From: Amblyomma americanum
Lineage: Eukaryota > Arthropoda > Arachnida > Ixodida > Ixodidae
DNA: 64,000 bases
Assembly (NCBI RefSeq): GCF_052857255.1
Contig: NC_135500.1
Span: forward strand, 50,866,272-50,930,271
Reading direction: 5' to 3'
The notes under the pieces are model-generated. The model worked only from the letters and a program-made list of their open reading frames with translations. It was not told the DNA's origin and did no database searches. Each line of letters begins with the position of its first letter. Position 1 is the first letter of the stretch. Position numbers and translations under genes: made by a program. Positions 1-41,990 of the stretch are shown here, in pieces.

Positions 1-400
1 AGGCCCTTTCCAAGTTGGAGCAATACGCGATGCAAACTCTAGGCCTCATAAGAAGAATCGCGGTTAAAGGTAGGTGTTTGAAAGAGAGGAACTTGCTGGG
101 GCTAATAGAGGCGTACGTAATTAGTAGAATTAGTTACGCGACGCCATACTTAGATATAAAAGCTAGAGAGAGGGAGAAAATAGATGCCCTCATTCGGAAA
201 TGTGTTAAAAAAAACAAAAGCCGCCGCCTTCTGGAAGACGTTGAAGTAACGAGCGTTAGCAAAATTTATTCGTCATGCGTAAAACGAAAGTCCGCATCCA
301 CGTAGCGGAGCGGTCGACGCCTAGCGCTATCAGAGAAATTACGATGCACGTCTACCCGTTGTCGACTTTACACCCTCTCAACATACGTCCCAAATCGAAT
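1..400 (+). pseudogene. I-like LINE reverse transcriptase, C-terminal fragment
   Basis: An open frame at 15-305 encodes the region after the RT palm (LIRRIAVKGRCLKE, then YVISRISYATPYL and IDALIRKCVKK). This connector lies between RT and RNase H in I-superfamily LINEs and resembles the element at 9.15-12.4 kb. The frame breaks near 305. Weak similarity may run to about 400, and the 5' part lies outside the window. Nothing recognisable follows up to about 580. It is a dead fragment; clade placement is inferred from motifs only. Confidence 0.6.
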
Positions 401-579
401 TTGCTTCGTATGGGGGGGTCAAGGTGGGCCTAGAATTCGGCTTGGAGTGCGATATGGTAATGCTTCAGTTAGTGATTGCGTGTAAACAATGTTTGCCTAT
501 TATTTAATTGTGGCTTTATTTCTATACCACAGCCCGTAGGGTTTTATTTGCTTACCAAATTCGGTACACAACTGTGCCC

Positions 580-668
580 CTTGTTGTCGGAGTATATATG
601 GCGGAACGAATGTGTGCGGGCTGCATATGATTTAACATCTGCTACAAATCCATTTGGATCCAAGATAT
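580..668 (+). ncRNA. U2 snRNA-like head, 5' part, of an interrupted U2 retroposon
   Basis: The block TTTAACATCTGCTA followed by CCATTTGGATCCAAGATAT corresponds to the branch-site-proximal and stem IIa/IIb region of U2 snRNA. The sequence upstream (from about 580) aligns only loosely with the U2 5' end. U2 sequence resumes at 1803 with ATTAAACTTTGGAAA, directly after the LTR element, so the two halves are one copy split by an insertion. Many substitutions in the 5' domain make it a pseudogene and not a working U2 gene. The 5' limit is approximate. Confidence 0.65.
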
Positions 669-823
669 TGTTACAAGTGGACGAATCATGAACGAAGAAG
701 TGGCGGTGCGCTGAACGACGACGACGTTGACAGTTGGTAGCTGGGCGCTCGGTTCTGAGCTGAGTGCTGGCCATCTCAGAGCAGCCGCCAATATAGACTT
801 ACCGCCGTAACATCCCCGTAACA
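669..823 (+). repeat. 5' LTR of the deleted gypsy element
   Basis: This 155-bp terminal repeat has TG...CA ends. It differs from the 3' copy at four sites (GTGG/GAGG, GAAG/AAAG, TTGACAG/TTGAGAG, CCAAT/CCATT), about 97% identity, so the insertion is fairly young. Confidence 0.85.
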
Positions 824-840
824 TCTTTTGGTGGAGGTAC

Positions 841-1610
841 GTGATCACTCGCGCCATTCCAACCAGCTGCGCCAATGACGTCGCTGACTTCCTTCTGCAC
901 GACGTCATATTACACCATGGCGCTCCCCGTCTACTCCTTACCGACCGTGGCCGCTGCTTCCTTTCCCGAGTTGTTGACGAAATCCTTCGTTCGTGCTCCG
1001 TTCGTCACAAGTTCACCACTGCTTATCATCCTCAGACGAACGGCCTTACGGAGCGTCTCAACCGCACGCTGACAGACATGCTCGTCATGTACGTATTCGA
1101 CGACCACCGGGACTGGGACATAAGCTTGCCTTTTGTCACCTTCGCCTACAACTCTTCGCGCCATGATACCGCTGGTTACTCGCCCTTCTATCTTCTCTTT
1201 GGACGAGACCCCTTACTGCCCTTCGACACTCTGCTGCCCACAGCTGGCCCTGTCACTATACATATGCGCGTGACGCTATCGCCCGAGCAGACGCCGCCCG
1301 CCGGGTTGCTCGACACAAGCTCTCCGCCTCCCAAGAGGCTCAAAAACACCGCTACGATGGCCTGCACCGTGATGTGCGATACCCTGCCGGATCTCTCGTC
1401 TTGCTGTGGCTCCCATCCCGTCGTGTGGGGTTATGTGAAAAACTTCTGCCGCGCTACACAGGTCCTTATCGTGTATTACGGGCAGTGACCGACGTAACGT
1501 ATGAAATCACGCCGCTGCACCCAAAGTCGACGTCCGCTCCACTGAAGTCCGAAGTCGTTCATGTAGCTCGCCTCAAGCCCTATCACCCACCATCGACATC
1601 GCACGCCTAA
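841..1610 (+). pseudogene. Ty3/gypsy integrase, C-terminal half, frameshifted
   Basis: Frame 841-1488 starts within the integrase core. It contains LLTDRGRCF (second catalytic Asp) and HPQTNGLTERLNRTL (catalytic Glu), then FAYNSSRHDTAGYSPFYLLFG, typical of gypsy integrases. The first Asp and the HHCC zinc finger are absent. A frameshift near 1370 moves the rest to the frame at 1374-1610, which carries the GPY/F module (LLPRYTGPYRVL and HVARLKPYH). No complete protein can be made. Confidence 0.85.
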
Positions 1611-1647
1611 CACGCACCGGGACGTTGCCTTCAGCCGATGGGGATAG

Positions 1648-1802
1648 TGTTACAAGAGGACGAATCATGAACGAAAAAGTGGCGGTGCGCTGAACGACGA
1701 CGACGTTGAGAGTTGGTAGCTGGGCGCTCGGTTCTGAGCTGAGTGCTGGCCATCTCAGAGCAGCCGCCATTATAGACTTACCGCCGTAACATCCCCGTAA
1801 CA
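1648..1802 (+). repeat. 3' LTR of the deleted gypsy element
   Basis: Second copy of the 155-bp repeat, followed immediately by the duplicated target ATAT and the remaining U2-like sequence. Confidence 0.85.
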
Positions 1803-2040: not shown

Positions 2041-3109
2041 CTAGCGCGATTTGAAAGTTATCGCGCGAGCGTTGAGCAGCCTAGCGTTCCAGGCACCTAG
2101 TGGCCAGTTTTGGAACAATGAAAGTCACAATTTCGCATTCCTCGTTCTTTGTTCCGTGTAAAACCATCAACCCCGCGGCGAAATTACCCTTTCTTTTTAT
2201 TCTAAGCTTTAGATTCTTTACGATCAAGTGTGGACTTGGTTACCTATCTTCTCGGACGATAAAAAAAAATTGATGGGACAGATCTGGTAAAGCTTATCCT
2301 TGACACTGTAATCATTTGAACAACTTTCTGAGTTGGAAAAAATATACCATCGCAACATTGCCTCGTCATACTGTTTGTCCACCACTGAAATTTCGTAAAG
2401 GATTTTTGCAGAAGGGGGTAACTGCAGTTACGCACGCCAGATGCAGGTTCGTACGGCTTAATTCTAGGTAATAGCGAAGAATAGGTCGCGCGCAATACCA
2501 TCACTTCCTGTTCGATGAAGCAAGAAATTAAAAAGCTATTTGCCTAGAAGTGACTTGCGGCTGCTTAAGGAAGAGCAAAGAGAGTGGGGGAAGCTGGCCT
2601 GATACCTCCTTCGCCACGTCAGAGAATTCTGGGCCATGGCGCTGTTCTTGTTCACGGTCGATGCTCGCGCGATAACCTTCAAATCACACTAGACTGTACA
2701 TATGTAGCGGTCCTGGGACGGGACAGGCTACAGGCCTTCGTAGAAGCAACGCACCAGCCTGGAGCGTAGTGGGCCCCTGGGCCCCGCCCGCAGCAGGAGG
2801 CGGCGCCCCTGCACCGGGCTTCTGACCGGCTGCCCGGGAATTCTTGCGACCCCGGAGCCTGGTGGAGGTGCTACCCGCGGACCCCCACCCCCTCCCAGCG
2901 TCCCCACCTGCTGATCCCGGTCCCCGGCCCGGCACCAGCATGGCATCCAACGGCCCACCCGGAGGACAGACGTACCGCGCGCCTCCCCCGATGGCGCACT
3001 GTTTTAACTTCTCTTTGAGAAGTGAGAAGGCGCGCACTGTATTTATGGTATCGACGGCCGCACACTTGCAGTCGATTTTTATTTCGGTGGCAGGCGCGTC
3101 AGGGCGGTA
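2041..3109. other. Unassigned stretch upstream of the Tx1-like endonuclease
   Basis: From 2600 the DNA becomes GC-rich with several overlapping proline/glycine-rich frames (for example 2844-3110). Its place just upstream of the endonuclease suggests the ORF1/5' part of the Tx1-like LINE, but no RRM or zinc-finger motif can be seen. Nothing is recognised in 2041-2600. Confidence 0.3.
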
Positions 3110-3867
3110 GTAGCGTACGCGGGAGCCAGCCGTTCCAATTTGTCTAGTTTCTTTGATCTGTTAAATTCTTTTCTGTTAGACTGTTACGCTTGTTTTCTTG
3201 TCGGCGATTCTAATCGTGTTTTAGATCCCGTACGTGATGTCCGTGGTCCAGGCCAGGGACGGCCCTACGTCGGGGCACGATCACTGGGGGATATTTGTAT
3301 TCAGTTTTCTTTGACTGACGCGTGGGTAAAACTACACGGTAACAGTTTTGGTGGTACCTGCGAACGGGGCAGGTCCGCCTGCTATCTCGATAAGTTCCTG
3401 ATCCCGCGTGAGCTGGAGTGCTGTTTGTTGTCGTGTGATGTGCTCGCGTTTCCCCCGGGTACCCACACATTAGCGATTATCGACCTGTGTCAGCAGTACT
3501 GGACATTGGCGGGGACGCCCCACGTCTAGATCCATGGCGCATGGATTCATGTCTGCTGACAGATTGGTCGAGCGTAGTAGCTATTGAACACGCGCTGGGA
3601 AGCCCGAGTGGAGGTGACGACAGTCCCAACTCCTGGGATGACAAAAAAGCAATGTGGCGATCGTATTTAGGGCACGAAGGGAGTCAGCGCAGAAAGCGCA
3701 TCACGGGCGAGGTAAACAGCACCCTCGCCCGTATACACGCCGTGCAGCGAAGTGCGCCGCTCACCTTCGTGATGCACGATTATCTTGATTTACTGAAAGC
3801 GCGCTACCACACTCAGACCGTGCTCGTCAGACCGTGCTCGCGTGCGTACTACGAGAGGTGCGTGTAG
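3110..3867 (+). pseudogene. Tx1-like LINE endonuclease and linker
   Basis: The frame includes VGDSNRVLDPVRDVRGPGQGR, a decayed form of the GDFNxVL motif of apurinic-type LINE endonucleases. It is followed by DAWVKLHG, the arginine-serine segment (CERGRSACYLDKFL) and CLLSCDVLAFPPGTHT. The expected SDH catalytic motif is damaged and a frameshift sits near 3480. The next frame (3487-3867) is the linker (RLDPWRMDSCLL, VMHDYLDLLKARY). It is non-functional as it stands. Confidence 0.7.
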
Positions 3868-4134
3868 GCAGCCCCGATGAGACGCGTCAGGTCCGCGTAG
3901 AGGAGATGGTTTTGCCGGACGGTGCAGGAGCAGCAGCGCGGCTGTCATCTCTAACGCTTTTACGCGTCACTTTTTGCAGCTGTTTGTTTCTGGGGCTGAA
4001 TGGTGGAGCTGCGACTCTTTCAAGGTCGCCGTTCGTAGTTTTTGCGGCCAGTTGCCGCAAGTGCCGATCGAACTAGGCACACAACTTAGCGCCCCAGTAA
4101 GCTCTGACAAACTGTTAGCCACCGTGGAAATTGC

Positions 4135-4520
4135 ATGAACGCCGCCTCAGCTCCAAGCCCGGACGACATTCCCACGAGCTTCTATGCCAGGTCCTACACC
4201 GTCCTGGAGGAACACCACCTGGGGAACCCCTTTGTCAGGGATGGCAAGAGGCCGGTGTCCTTTAGAGAGAGCTGTGTTGAGCTCATCCTGAAGCCTGGCG
4301 GGTGCCCATCTGACCAGCAGGCGTGGCGCCCGGTCACTCTACTTAACACAGCTTGCAAGATTGTGGCGTCATTGCTGGCTAAAAGGTTGGGCAAGGTTTT
4401 AGCGGTGTTCGGAAGCTCGCGCAGACCTGCAGCATGCCCGGACGCTCGGCATTTTTGTCTCTCGCACTAACGCGTGACTTGGTCACGTTCACCTCGAGAA
4501 CGGGAATACTGGGTTGTTTT
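4135..4520 (+). pseudogene. Tx1-like RT, fingers region
   Basis: SPDDIPTSFYARSY, then ELILKPGGCPSDQQAWRPVTLLNTACKIVASLLAKRL, matches the conserved RT motif with LLPKPGK...WRPI.LLN..YKI. Upstream and downstream frames are broken. The segment stops at the inverted-repeat element that begins near 4525 and continues at about 5075 with LDQAKAFDRVEH. Confidence 0.75.
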
Positions 4521-4524
4521 GTCT

Positions 4525-5070
4525 TAAGGGCGGTTCACATGCAAGCGATTGAGCGAACTGAGCGACCAGCGGCTCGGCGCAGCGGTGCTTTCGGAAGGTT
4601 TCGTTTCACATGCGTCGCTCCAGAGCGTTTACTGCCGCTGCGAATCCCAGTGTTGCTGGCAAAGAATACGAGCTCGCGGTTGGTTTGCAACCATCAACAT
4701 GGAGAATGTTCATGCATCCTTTTTTCAAGATTGCTCAAATTTTGTTAAGAAATAAAGAACTCTTGTTTGTTAAATATCAACTACTTCTTGTTTTGATGCC
4801 AATAATGTCATTTTTGTTTAAGTTCGTATGTGGGTGTCGGAAGCGCGTGTTGCAAACAGTCTTTCCCGCACGAAACCTCTTCTTGTCACGTGGCTTTTCC
4901 GCCGCGCAGTCATTGGTCAGAGGGCGGAGCTATCGCGCTGTCGCTGCGAAAATTTCCAACTTGTTGAAACCCCTTCACTCTGGCCGGCCGAGCCGCCGCG
5001 ACGGGTCCAAACAGGGTTTTACGTCGCCGCGACAGGATTCGCTGGCATTTTCGCTTGCATGTGAAACACG
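4525..5070. mobile_element. Non-autonomous inverted-repeat DNA element inside the Tx1-like LINE
   Basis: The ends carry inverted copies of TCACATGCAAGCGA (4535-4548 and, reversed, 5051-5064), extending to about 20 bp with mismatches. The interruption falls exactly between two adjacent RT motifs of the host LINE. The left flank is CTTAA and the right flank CTTTA, which could be a worn TTAA-type duplication. No transposase frame is evident. Superfamily unknown. Confidence 0.6.
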
Positions 5071-5204
5071 CTTTACTCGATCAGGCGAAAGCCTTCGACC
5101 GAGTTGAGCACCGCTACCTTTTTGGCGTTCTCGGGCTTTCGGCTTTCCGCCAGATCTTGTGGAGTGTTTAGAGCGGCTGTACTCCGGCCTAACAGCTCAG
5201 CTGC

Positions 5205-5975
5205 TTTGCAGCGAAAAGCTTCACTACGCTAGTCAACACCGCGCTTCGCGCGAGCCGGCGTATGTCGAAGCACGAGTGACGTCACGCACGGCGCAGGTGG
5301 CCGCCACCGACTCCGTCGCCAGACCTTTTGCCGCTGCCGCTCGTTACGTCACGCGCGGCGCCGGTGGCTACTGCCGCGCGCTATGCGTCATCGTTTGACG
5401 TTCGCCGCAAGCGTTTACGCTGTGTTTTACGCGTACACAAACGCTTTACAGCCACCACCTCTCATTTGCACCGGTGGCGTTTGCAATCAGGTTAATGGCA
5501 GCGGCGTTTTGAAGCGAAAAGCTTCCGTACGCGGGTCAGAGCCGAGCTTCGCGTGAGCCGAACTCGTGGGTTATGCGCATGCGCGAAAACGATTGACGTC
5601 ACACGCCGCGCAGGTGGTCGCTCCTCGCCGCTGCCGCCGCCAACTCCGTCGCCTGAACGTTCGGCGCAGCCGCGCGCTACTGCACGTGTGCATGCGCAAG
5701 GAGGCTATATAATGCGCTTGACAGAGAATAGGCGTGCGCACTCGACATGGAAGGGAAGGAGAGTGCGGCTGCTGCTAGACTACGCAGAAAAGGTGAGAAA
5801 CTAGATTCGTCCGAACCAGAAGTACTCGCTTGGGAGTTGGCTGCACAATAGCAAAAAAAAAATGATAAAGCCAAAGCTAAGCTATGAAGCATAACTATGA
5901 CATCAAACAAAGCATAACTGAAGCTTTTGCTTGTATATGCAGGTTTAACCAGAGCTGAGCCACTGCCTATCTTTT
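5205..5975. mobile_element. Second insertion in the Tx1-like LINE, unknown class
   Basis: Host RT sequence stops after LYSGLTAQLL (about 5203) and resumes at NGA...SHPFDVERGIRQGCPQSP (about 5978). The 770 bp between is GC-rich. It contains an internal duplicated module (5206-5330 and 5509-5670) with GCGAAAAGCTTC, then CGCTTCGCG..GAGCC and GACGTCAC. GAAAAGCTTCA near the left end and TGAAGCTTTTG near the right form a short inverted pair. A start with EGKESAAAARLRRKGEKL occurs at 5747 but soon hits a stop. Confidence 0.5.
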
Positions 5976-5977
5976 TT

Positions 5978-6462
5978 TAACGGAGCGTAGAGCCACCCGT
6001 TCGATGTTGAGCGCGGCATTAGACAGGGCTGTCCACAGTCGCCTATGTTATTTGTGTTGTGCTCGAAGCAGCTCCTTCGCCGCATAGCGGAGTGTCCATC
6101 GGTGCGCGGATTCCCTTTGCCGCGCCGTGGTCAGGCGAAGGTGTCCGCGTACGCTGACGACGTGTTCGTGTTCCTTCGGGACGAGGAGAGCCGTAGCATT
6201 TTTACGGTCGTTTGCGAGTTCTAGCGAGCTGTCCGGCGCCCTGCTTAACAGGGGCAAGAGCAAAGCGCTGCGCTTCGGCGCTTTTGCGGCAGACCTGCTA
6301 GGCGCTGTGGATTGGGTCTCGGCGATTAAGGTGCTAGGCGTGGTGTTCCTCTCCTCAGCCCGCAAGTCGTGGGCGCAGTTGAGAGCAACAGCAGAGCAAC
6401 TTCTGGCAGTGGCAGTGCGTTTTTGCCTCTCGCTTTCGGAGTGCGCATTCATCATTAGATAA
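5978..6462 (+). pseudogene. Tx1-like RT, palm region with YADD box
   Basis: After the insertion the frame reads ERGIRQGCPQSPMLFVLC and, further on, VSAYADDVFVFLRDE. This is the catalytic YADD of the palm, still intact here. Stops and a frameshift follow (frame 6127-6462 encodes the continuation). The last codons lead in frame, through one stop, into the part beyond the I-like LINE inserted at 6471. Confidence 0.75.
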
Positions 6463-6470
6463 TCTGTGTG

Positions 6471-7582
6471 GATGGATGGATAGAAACAATTTTATTGGCG
6501 ACAAATTTAAAATGTGCGTGACCCTTACGGGTCGCTGGGACCTCTGGCCCTGGCGTATTGTTCTGTATGGTCGATGGCTCTTTGTACCTGCTCTTCTTTT
6601 GCTTCTATGGAGCCTGTGGCTGTCCATATTGTTATGCCATCTGCACACATTGCGTAGCTAATGTTTTCTATTTCGTCGAGTGCTTTCGTGAGTCCTATCA
6701 TAGCTACGTTGAATAGTGGCGGAGGTATTACTGAGCCTTGCTGGGTGCACTTGTTTGGCACCGTGAAGCTCTCAGCTCTTGTGTTTCCGATGCCTGTCAT
6801 AGCCGTTCGTTCCGTCAAGAAGGCTTTGACATATCGGAAGGCTCTGTTTCCGCAGTTTATGTTATTGAGACCTTCAATGATGGCCGCATGTCCCACGTTA
6901 TCGAAGGCTCCCTTTTATGTCGAGGGCTAATACTATGCATGTGTTCTCCACTTCTTGGTATTTCAGTGAAGACTTTCTCCTTTAATTGTAGAAGTACGTC
7001 TTGCGTGTACAGCCCCCTTCTGAAGCCAAACATGGCATCAGGGTACTATCCCGTGTCCTCCATGTATTTTGTCATCCTTTCATTGACCACTCTCTCGTAT
7101 ATCTTCTCTAGGCAGGAGGTTAGGGAGATTAATCTGAGGTTTTCGATTTGGAGTCTTTTGCCCGGCTTGGGTATCATAATTACCTGTGCATGTTTCCATT
7201 CCGTTCCTTTTTCCCAGAATCCGTTTAGGTATTTGGTAAGTTCGGCGATAGCCGTGTCTGCCATGTTTTTAATGGTGGCGTTATTTATTTTGTGCTTTCC
7301 GGCTGCCGTAATCTTTTTGGCTTCCCCTAAGGCTGCCCTTACTTCCACCTCGGTGATTGGCCTATCCATCCCGGGGTTGTATTCTCCTGTGTATTCTTAG
7401 TCTTGCTTTGGGTGCGTGGTTGTGCCGTAGCATTTCTCCCTCAGTGCCTCTGTTAGTTGGTCTTCCGTTCTGGGGAAGGTGTGGATTAGTCGTTTCATGG
7501 ACTTGCCGCTTTCCGTTTTGGTTTTTGTTGGGTCTATCAAGGCTACTAGTATATTCCAAGTTCGGGCCATTCCTAATCCTGC
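6471..7582 (-). mobile_element. 5'-truncated I-like LINE inserted in the Tx1-like LINE, with 8-bp TSD
   Basis: The flanks are TCTGTGTG at 6463-6470 and 7583-7590, an exact duplication. The element reads on the minus strand and ends with a GGATGGATGGA run (tail of CATC units), as does the 9.15-12.4 kb copy. It keeps RT pieces at 7046-7369 (MIPKPGK, LRLISLTSCLEKIYE) and 6525-6896. The catalytic box reads YAMCADGITIW, so the second aspartate is lost. Upstream coding sequence is missing from MARTWNILVAL onward, a 5' truncation typical of LINE integration. Confidence 0.85.
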
Positions 7583-8510
7583 TCTGTGTGCGCGTTGCTG
7601 TACTACGTCTCTCGTGTCGCCTGTCCGCCATGCACTTTTACGCGTCGCCTGGCCGCAATGTGTGGCGCTTTTTTCTGGGCGGGAAAGACGGAGACCGTCG
7701 CTCGCTCGCTCCTCCACCTTCCCACCAGCATGGGTGGGTTTTGCCTGCCCAACCTGCGCATAATGTGCAGCGTCCTCGCTGTCCGAGTCGTCCGCGGCCT
7801 TGTCAACTCCACCGACTACCCAGGCAGAGGGCTTCTCGCCTACGTTCTCGGGACGTAGCGGCGCCTTTTTTTTTCGTCCTTTAGTGGGTCCTTCAGCTGA
7901 ACAGCAGCTGGGGTTCTTCCGCTATGCTTGCCGGACGGCCCAGACTCTCACCGCCACCCTGCCCGAGGTCAGCGTTTGCCAGACGCAGGCCTCCCGCGTT
8001 TGCGAGCTCCTTGCAAAACAGGAGGCTACCCCAGAGCAGCTAGAGCGGAGCAGGCAGGTAAGATGGCGAGATTTGACGTCTCACTCTCTTGCGCCAGACA
8101 TCCGCGACCTCGACTGGCTGCGAAGCTGGAGTGCCTTGCCAACGGGAGTCCGTCTCGCAGCGTGGGGCATCGCTCCTTCTTCGCGGTGTCCGCAGTGCGG
8201 CGGAACTGAAACCTTTGAGCACGCGCTATTTGAGTGCGTTGTGACGCGCACTGTTTGGCGACTTCTGTTCCCTATGTTTAGTTTGTCGCTCGACTGGCAC
8301 ACCAGGCCGCGCGATGCATTTGTGCGGCTGTTGTTGTGTGCTGGCGCTTTTGTTTTGTGGCGCCAGAAAGGCGTCGCTTCCTTACAGGGCCGACCCCAAC
8401 GGGTCATGTTTTCGATGCTGCAGCCTGTCCGAGCGTGCCTGTTTGGGCAGGCGTGCTTAGGCAGGGTGACGCTGCAGGAAGGGCTTCTGCGATGGTAGAG
8501 CACCCGCTTC
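7583..8510 (+). pseudogene. Tx1-like LINE C-terminal region with zf-RVT domain
   Basis: 7586-7858 encodes CGAFFWAGKTETVARSLLHLP, then SMGGFCLPN and YPGRGLLAYVLG, the post-RT connector of L1/Tx1-type LINEs. A shift leads to 7800-8498 with WGIAPSSRCPQCGGTETFEHALFECVVTRTVWRLLF. This is the C-x2-C...H...C zinc-binding zf-RVT domain. The frame ends at the 3' UTR. Confidence 0.8.
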
Positions 8511-8574
8511 ATCGTCTCAAGCGGGGGCCGTGTGACGGTGCGACTACTACCTTACTGAGTGGTGCGCGCAAGTG

Positions 8575-8775
8575 ATATGCGCGATTTGTGCGCGGTTCCC
8601 TCCCTTGTACTTCCCCCGCGCTTATGGACTTCCTTTAAATTAGTTTTTTGGACACTTTTTCGGTGCGTGTGTGTGTGTGTCGGCGATATTAGTCGCCGTA
8701 GTGTATCTTTTGTACAATTGAGGGACTAGTGTCCCTTTTCAGATGAGCGTCCAAATAAACGTCTCTTTAACCCGT
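8575..8775 (+). promoter_or_regulatory. 3' UTR of the Tx1-like LINE with two hairpins and a poly(A) signal
   Basis: Two perfect stem-loops, CGGCGA-TATTAG-TCGCCG (8681-8698) and GGGAC-TAGT-GTCCC (8722-8735), lie just before AATAAA near 8755. They may be the structure recognised by the element's own RT. This role is inferred from other LINEs. Confidence 0.5.
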
Positions 8776-21356: not shown

Positions 21357-21770
21357 ATTGGTTTTGAGGAAATGAAATGGAGCAGTAACTGTCTAGATAT
21401 CTCGTTGGACACCTGAACTGCACCATAAGGGAAGGGAGGAAGGTGGGAGTGGAAGAAGCAAAGGAAAAAGGGTGCCATAGTGGAGGCCTCCGGAATAATT
21501 TCGACCACCTGGTGATCTTTAACGTGTACTGACATCGCTTTAAAGATCCCCAGGTAATATAAATTATTCCGGAGGCCTCCACTACAGCACCCCTTTCTCC
21601 CTTTCTGGTTAGTGGGTGTTTAGAATTCCAAAGCGATTCGGGGTACGAGGGACGCCGTAGTGAAGGGCTCCGGGAATTTCGACCACTTGGGGTTCTTTAA
21701 CGTGCACTGACATCGCACAGTACACGGCCCTCTTTCTTTCACTCCCTTTGTCCAGGAGATAAAATTTCGC
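21357..21770. repeat. SINE fragments in opposite orientations
   Basis: 21357-21539 is a reverse SINE body. At 21540 the sequence turns into the forward body (TTAAAGATCCCCAGGTAAT...CCGGAGGCCTCCACTACAGC, to 21606), and 21640-21745 is again reverse. The first two form an interrupted palindrome around 21540. Confidence 0.7.
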
Positions 21771-41394: not shown

Positions 41395-41577
41395 AAATTG
41401 AAAATTGGTTTTTGGGGAAAGGAAATGGCGCACTGTGTCATATATCATTGGACACCTGAACCGCGCTGTAAGGGAAGAGATAAAGGAGGGAGTGAAAAAA
41501 GAAATCAAGGGGTGCCGTAGTGGAGGGCTCCGGAATAATTTCCCCAACCTGTGGATCTTGAACGTGCACTGACGTCG
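41395..41577 (-). repeat. tRNA-derived SINE, 3' part, interrupted
   Basis: Same family as 20028-20333: GAAAATTGGTTTTTGGGG, AAGGGAAGAGATAAAGGAGG, TAGTGGAGGGCTCCGGAATA. It is split by the U2 retroposon; the head follows at 41869. Confidence 0.8.
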
Positions 41578-41859
41578 TTGTGGCTGTCGTCAGTAAGAAT
41601 GAAAAGGAAGTGCACGGGCCTGCCCACTGGCTCAAGCTGAGCCACAGCCGCTGCCACGTGCTGAAAGTAGGGGAGTTGAAAAATAGGAGGGCAAAAATTG
41701 AAAGAAAAGAAGTGCGCTATTATGCCCCGGCCCATCCCGGGGGCAGTGCAATACCGGGCCAACCCGTGCCGGAGTGCTTCAAGCACTCCGCCATATTTCA
41801 AAAAAAAAGTTTACTATCTTGGATCCAAATGGGACCCATATCAGATATTAATACGGGTC
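41578..41859 (-). ncRNA. U2 snRNA-headed retroposon with TSD
   Basis: On the minus strand, 41856-41726 is U2-like: TTAATATCTGATATGGGTCC, CCATTTGGATCCAAGATAGT, GGCGGAGTGCTTGAAGCACT, GGGTTGGCCCGGTATTGCAC and CCCCGGGATGGGCC, i.e. from stem II to stem-loop IV. It has lost the first 45 or so bases. 41725-41578 is a non-U2 body matching 1900-2040. CTGACGTCG (41569-41577) and CTGACTTCG (41860-41868) flank it, a 9-bp duplication with one mismatch, inside a SINE whose normal sequence has the site once. This indicates LINE-type retroposition of a U2-plus-body transcript. Confidence 0.8.
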
Positions 41860-41868
41860 CTGACTTCG

Positions 41869-41990
41869 CATGCACAGCACACGGGCGCCTTTGCCTTTCG
41901 CCTTCATCGCAACGCGGCCGCCGCAGTCAGGTTCGAACTCGGGAACTCCGGATCAGTAGCCGAGCGCTCTAACCACTGAGCCACCGCGTC
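41869..41990 (-). repeat. tRNA-derived SINE, head part of the interrupted copy
   Basis: On the minus strand: TGGCTCAGTGGTTAGAGCGC (A box), CCCGAGTTCGAACC (B box), then GGCGCCCGTGTGCTGTGC, where the U2 retroposon cuts it. Confidence 0.8.

Follow-up and report, generated by a model that had tools for sequence, protein, structure and literature searches.

The genome of the tick Amblyomma americanum contains a family of short interspersed elements (SINEs), real, large and old, whose copies start within U2 snRNA and continue into a body of their own. We put the probability that these are one U2-headed SINE family spread by LINE-driven retroposition at roughly 0.92. The original prediction of such a family is supported by the copy numbers, by the joint presence of head and body, by enriched target-site duplications and by a 3' flank of the U2 genes that differs from the body. 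The elements are about 260 to 290 bp long in the alignment, have no long open frames and occur as many dispersed copies. Coordinates given for the window refer to the 64-kb stretch of DNA that was analysed, and L numbers refer to loci fetched from the same assembly (G000; 2.56 Gb, 429 contigs).

One copy in the window, copy B, lies on the minus strand at 41577 to 41858 inside an older tRNA-headed SINE, which we take to be of the Ruka type of ticks and whose tRNA-like head lies at 41919 to 41990 on the same strand (Rfam RF00005, 30.3 bits). Its junctions were placed from tRNA-SINE paralogues without the insertion. When the flanks of copy B were joined, 28 BLAST rows crossed the site in tRNA-SINEs lacking the insert, and these represent paralogous empty sites, not all of them independent, as some loci gave two rows and some are mutual duplicates. 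The same comparison delimited a target-site duplication, GAAGTCAGG on the head side (41859 to 41867) and GACGTCAGT on the tail side (41568 to 41576), both read on the minus strand and alike in 8 of 9 bases. The empty sites thus bore out the claim that a 5'-truncated copy, flanked by a 9-bp duplication with one mismatch, had inserted into an older tRNA-SINE. The U2-derived head, from the stem IIa region to the end of stem-loop IV, occupies 41729 to 41851 (minus strand), as defined by its match to the U2 of L064, and was 84% identical to the 3' part of that U2 over 131 columns. The non-U2 body with its decayed tail, common to copy A (described below) and the other aligned copies, occupies 41577 to 41728 (minus strand). 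As had been proposed, the insert therefore begins within U2, in its 3' part, and runs on into about 145 bp of other sequence. Copy B was 86.7% identical to the family consensus over consensus positions 9 to 279, and Rfam U2 was not listed for it at E ≤ 0.1 in the search of the window. The host element resembles the U2 SINE in being a short dispersed retroposon of the same genome but differs in its tRNA-derived head, and no sequence relation between the two was seen. Elsewhere in the window (21456 to 21609), Rfam matches to MIR1858 and MIR2118 look less like a microRNA, as judged from the sequence, than like two tRNA-SINE pieces inverted relative to each other.

In the 2.56-Gb genome, a 27-nt word from U2 stem-loop IV (GGCCCGGTATTGCACTGCCTCCGGGAT) occurred at 5,785 places (2,871 + 2,914), a number that includes the true U2 genes (at least 46 U2 places were scored by Rfam among the best candidates). 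A 27-nt body word (GCGCGTCTTTTCTTTCACTCTTTGCTC) occurred, with up to 3 mismatches, at 1,041 places (486 + 555), and the reversed patterns that served as controls gave 0 and 1 places, respectively. Exact body-word places were distributed over contigs C1 to C11 and C360; 91 of them were reduced to 82 (7 had been fetched before and 2 were neighbours of others), from which 20 were drawn. All 20 reached the U2 head, starting at consensus positions 0 to 100 with the junction at 139, and three (L087, L088 and L100) were rearranged or partial. For the head word, at least 100 exact places, those listed all being on contig C1, yielded 97 kept and 20 drawn; the body lay downstream in every one, and none was a U2 gene. 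Since duplicated loci were among the sampled places (L099/L102 in the body sample; L107/L118, L109/L110 and L114/L117 in the head sample), each sample comprises fewer than 20 independent events. The check suggested beforehand, a search for dispersed copies that share U2, body and 3' end, some of them with duplications, was thus answered by 5,785 and 1,041 places and by two samples of 20 out of 20. Exact 25- and 27-nt head words had no match in the viral and prokaryote contig collections.

The aligned copies pass from head to body at a common position, close to U2 nt 184 and eight nt before the mature end. Many copies of the first set start at U2 stem IIa, and subfamily E retains GTAG-AGTATCTGTT, corresponding to U2 nt 34 to 44, preceded by sequence that is not U2-like. 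The differences between subfamilies extend jointly over head and body, and 17 of the 20 head-sampled copies were 93 to 99% identical to the subfamily E consensus, the other three not. The tails are (CAG)n or (AGCA)n in the first subfamilies, (CAGT)n in subfamily C and (CAGA)n or TTCTCTCT in subfamily E. Stem-loop III is altered in subfamily C and in copy B, with the hairpin fold retained. In the 42-copy alignment, at most one pair of the named helices was changed on both sides (columns 231/283), and as an unpaired A-A is also common there, we make no claim of covariation.

The single junction place and the subfamily differences that span head and body are those of one amplified unit, and they speak against the idea that the body is a LINE 3' end and that each copy arose by its own template jump onto U2 RNA. 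We regard such separate origins as very improbable, although LINE-1 is known to form chimeras with U2 and other snRNAs (PMC13174262) and a second body in L011, not preceded by U2, begins near the head-body junction. The 1.3 kb upstream of that body showed no long open frame. In a body-only search, in which the best 40 of 3,040 candidates were scored, 23 coincided with places of the first search; 14 of the 17 further loci fetched start in the U2 head, and three (L070, L077 and L078) start within the body. The headless body of L011 and these three body-internal starts can be read either as truncation or as a separate body source. The snRNA/LINE chimeras offer a plausible route by which a U2 head was joined to a body, but in these reports (PMC13174262; fungal case, PMC2104539) they are described as chimeric insertions, whereas the U2 SINE is one multiplying family.

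Four U2 loci (L033 to L036) are identical over 192 nt (190.9 bits each) and represent canonical U2. SINE consensus positions 9 to 139 match them at 96.9% over 131 columns, and 14 of the 17 U2-SINE loci listed when 30 loci had been fetched exceeded the Rfam U2 gathering score. The 3' part of U2, all but its last eight nt, is thus retained in the head, and retrocopies of small RNAs are documented (PMC7245038), both of which would suit ordinary U2 retropseudogenes or read-through copies whose body is simply the 3' flank of the U2 genes. We consider this very improbable. The canonical U2 genes continue 3' as cctacgggggtgagaccttttcaaaatcc..., not as the SINE body, and the SINE consensus matches the U2 genes of 30 loci only within its first 139 positions. 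When the body was sought around the 30 fetched U2 loci, none was found save one separate, nearly complete SINE copy in L046, more than 1 kb from its U2 locus. The refutation envisaged at the outset, that the body would prove to be the normal 3' flank of the U2 genes and the copies few, therefore failed on both counts, the copies numbering in the thousands. A retropseudogene made of U2 only, with gene flank or a poly-A tail, was ruled out at the U2 loci examined, since the SINE has its own body and a simple-repeat tail. A box like TTTTCAAAATCCAAAATCAGA lies behind L033 to L036 and most of the 30 U2-like loci and is absent behind L056 and L058. Many diverged U2 variants were also recorded (L037 to L052, 180 to 132 bits), most with the 3' box and some with common upstream sequence. 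In addition, a second, 26- to 33-nt piece of U2 stem-loop IV was observed about 300 bp behind the gene in the canonical loci (L034:1996-2027, likewise L033, L035 and L036) and partly in L055, L057 and L059.

The second copy in the window, copy A, is on the plus strand and had been described as a U2-like copy spanning 580 to 2040. It is U2-like from about 628; the earlier part belongs to a larger repeat common to copy A, L013, L020 and L025, and an LTR element interrupts the copy. The 5' piece of the U2 head lies at 628 to 669, as defined by matches to other copies and the consensus. The LTR element, which is outside the SINE proper, occupies 670 to 1802 (plus strand), with exact ends and a 5-bp duplication, ATATT, read from the sequence and with direct repeats at 664-823 and 1643-1802 (96.9% identity). 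The remaining U2 head (to about 1893), the body and a short tail follow at 1803 to 2039, as placed by Rfam U2 and by family matches (query positions 14 to 250). The Rfam U2 match at 1803 to 1895 scored 40.7 bits (E = 9.8e-5), under the gathering score of 46. Copy A is followed by an insert that has inverted ends (2036-2070 and 2663-2697). Copies A and B aligned over 176 columns at 81% (E = 5e-41), confirming the claim that they share the same U2 3' half and the same body.

About 1 kb around the SINE is common to L013, L020 and L025, and copy A shares with this larger repeat some 0.4 kb upstream of the SINE and pieces downstream. Among these four, identities were 84 to 90% for the SINE, 83 to 88% for the upstream flank and 66 to 83% for the downstream flank. 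The resemblance of the SINE identities to those of the upstream flank would favour one old insertion into the larger repeat over separate insertions at one site of it, but the less alike downstream flank and the differing tails of L013 and L020 point the other way. The larger repeat has a TATA-like box shortly before its SINE (L013, L020, L025 and window 208 to 627). It is highly improbable that the U2 piece travels throughout as part of some larger transposon or segmental duplication, for beyond this shared sequence and a few duplicated loci (L003/L005 and L010/L014 besides the four sampled pairs) the flanks of other copies are mostly unrelated among the matches listed.

Retroposition was assessed by comparing the own flanks of 58 copies with shuffled flank pairs. 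A duplication score of at least 8 was reached by 10 of the 58 copies versus 0.96% of shuffled pairs, and a score of at least 7 by 14 copies versus 4.6%, leaving 44 of the 58 without a duplication at that score; the mean was 5.5 for own flanks and 4.5 for shuffled ones. Single duplications included L002 (12/12, ACTAAAGAGCAG), L016 (15/17), L119 (18/19) and L103 (TCGCGTTRCCTG). Together with the common 3' end, the variable 5' truncation and the dispersal, these duplications support the view that copies would have spread by LINE-driven target-primed reverse transcription. All 37 tail-like repeats in the 321,714 bases of fetched DNA follow a SINE body, and no LINE with the same 3' end as the U2 SINE was found among those loci.

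The SINE RNA would thus consist of a U2 part (about nt 34 to 184 of the 192 nt) and a body of about 145 nt with a short simple-repeat tail. The fusion most probably arose when a LINE reverse transcriptase, while copying body RNA, switched to U2 RNA at its 3' end and then halted in the branch-site region, where U2 is modified. Such a stop is suited by the dense modification that mature U2 carries in the 5' part missing from the SINE. As this 5' part is missing, any upstream promoter is gone as well. A simple scan of the SINE consensus found one loose A-box-like place, no B box and, 63 nt in, a T5 run within the head; transcription by Pol III from an internal promoter, the usual arrangement in SINEs, is therefore unlikely, as far as the consensus can tell. 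Since the head has no U2 promoter and its T5 run, at the Sm site, should stop Pol III, it was probably Pol II, starting at nearby sites, that transcribed the master copies, and several subfamilies with different tail repeats would then have been amplified. Since Pol II transcribes snRNA genes from upstream promoters, how a SINE lives on an snRNA head becomes a question, one that can be tested by comparison in an arthropod family of thousands of copies.

SINEs with snRNA-derived heads (SINEU) have been described from reptiles, reportedly from crocodilians, and are also tied to Tx1-type LINEs. The U2 SINE shares with them an snRNA-derived head but is set apart, by description, in occurring in a tick, in drawing on U2 alone, in a head that begins at about U2 nt 34, in having its own body and in its tails of tri- and tetranucleotide repeats. 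SINEU is a class listed in Repbase, and snRNA-headed SINEs are mentioned for avian and crocodilian genomes in PMC8010984. In the open-licence literature searched, we met no tick report of a U2-headed SINE or of a LINE within such a SINE. The family in this tick adds to the SINEs with snRNA heads and is unexpectedly linked to LINEs that target U2.

Five U2 loci (L053 to L055, L061 and L062) lack roughly the first 34 to 40 nt of U2 on the near side, and their U2 begins after a common LINE end that reads AATAAACTTCTCTT or nearly so. Long open frames encoding APE-type endonuclease, reverse transcriptase and zinc-binding domains (PF03372, PF00078 and PF13966) are present in the LINEs of L063 and L064, and in L064 U2 resumes behind the LINE at ATCTGTTC, placing entry at about U2 nt 39. 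A LINE protein of this genome had a distant match named Transposon TX1, and its named best relatives were in Haemaphysalis longicornis, Ixodes and Rhipicephalus (120 of 138 matches listed). By these domains and the entry site the LINE appears to be of Keno type. Keno is given the same LINE make-up and U2 target site, and Utopia, another U2-targeting LINE, is recorded for Ixodes scapularis, in PMC4640811; the entry at about nt 39 agrees with the site published there. These are coding LINEs in U2 genes, whereas the U2 SINE is non-coding and dispersed and carries their target.

A full-length Tx1-type LINE was found inside a U2-headed SINE at the U2 target site (L124:1-5552; G000:C1:54539050-54547050). 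In L114 and L117, which are mutual duplicates, the LINE end is joined directly to SINE sequence reading ATCTGTTACGGG; the corresponding sequence in L064 is ATCTGTTCTTATC. L124 adjoins L114, and in it a 37-nt 5' part of the SINE precedes the LINE, which is 90.3% identical to the L064 LINE over 5.4 kb and has a reverse transcriptase domain. Behind the LINE the SINE resumes, with ATCTGTTACGGG on both sides as a 12- to 13-bp duplication. Entry was at GTAGAGT^ATCTGTT in the SINE, versus GTAGT^ATCTGTT for the same family in a U2 gene. The matching site and the duplication indicate that a LINE of the family that enters U2 genes took the SINE for U2, in one event so far (L124/L114/L117), and a SINE can thus carry the address of a site-specific LINE. 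A tentative and somewhat doubtful extension is that the SINE has distributed landing sites for a U2-targeting LINE across the genome. If true, a target numbering tens, as U2 genes, would have been joined by thousands of similar sites, and these could take pressure off the U2 genes or help the LINE to persist; U2-targeting LINEs may in turn have helped to make the SINE.

Two further LINEs were noted. A second LINE occupies the same site of a U2 gene in L065 (3153 to 6761), with a 1202-aa frame in which a reverse transcriptase but no APE domain was found; it is perhaps Utopia-like. In the window, 2724 to 8767, at a non-U2 place behind copy A, is a decayed relative of the U2-targeting LINE that is broken by other inserts.
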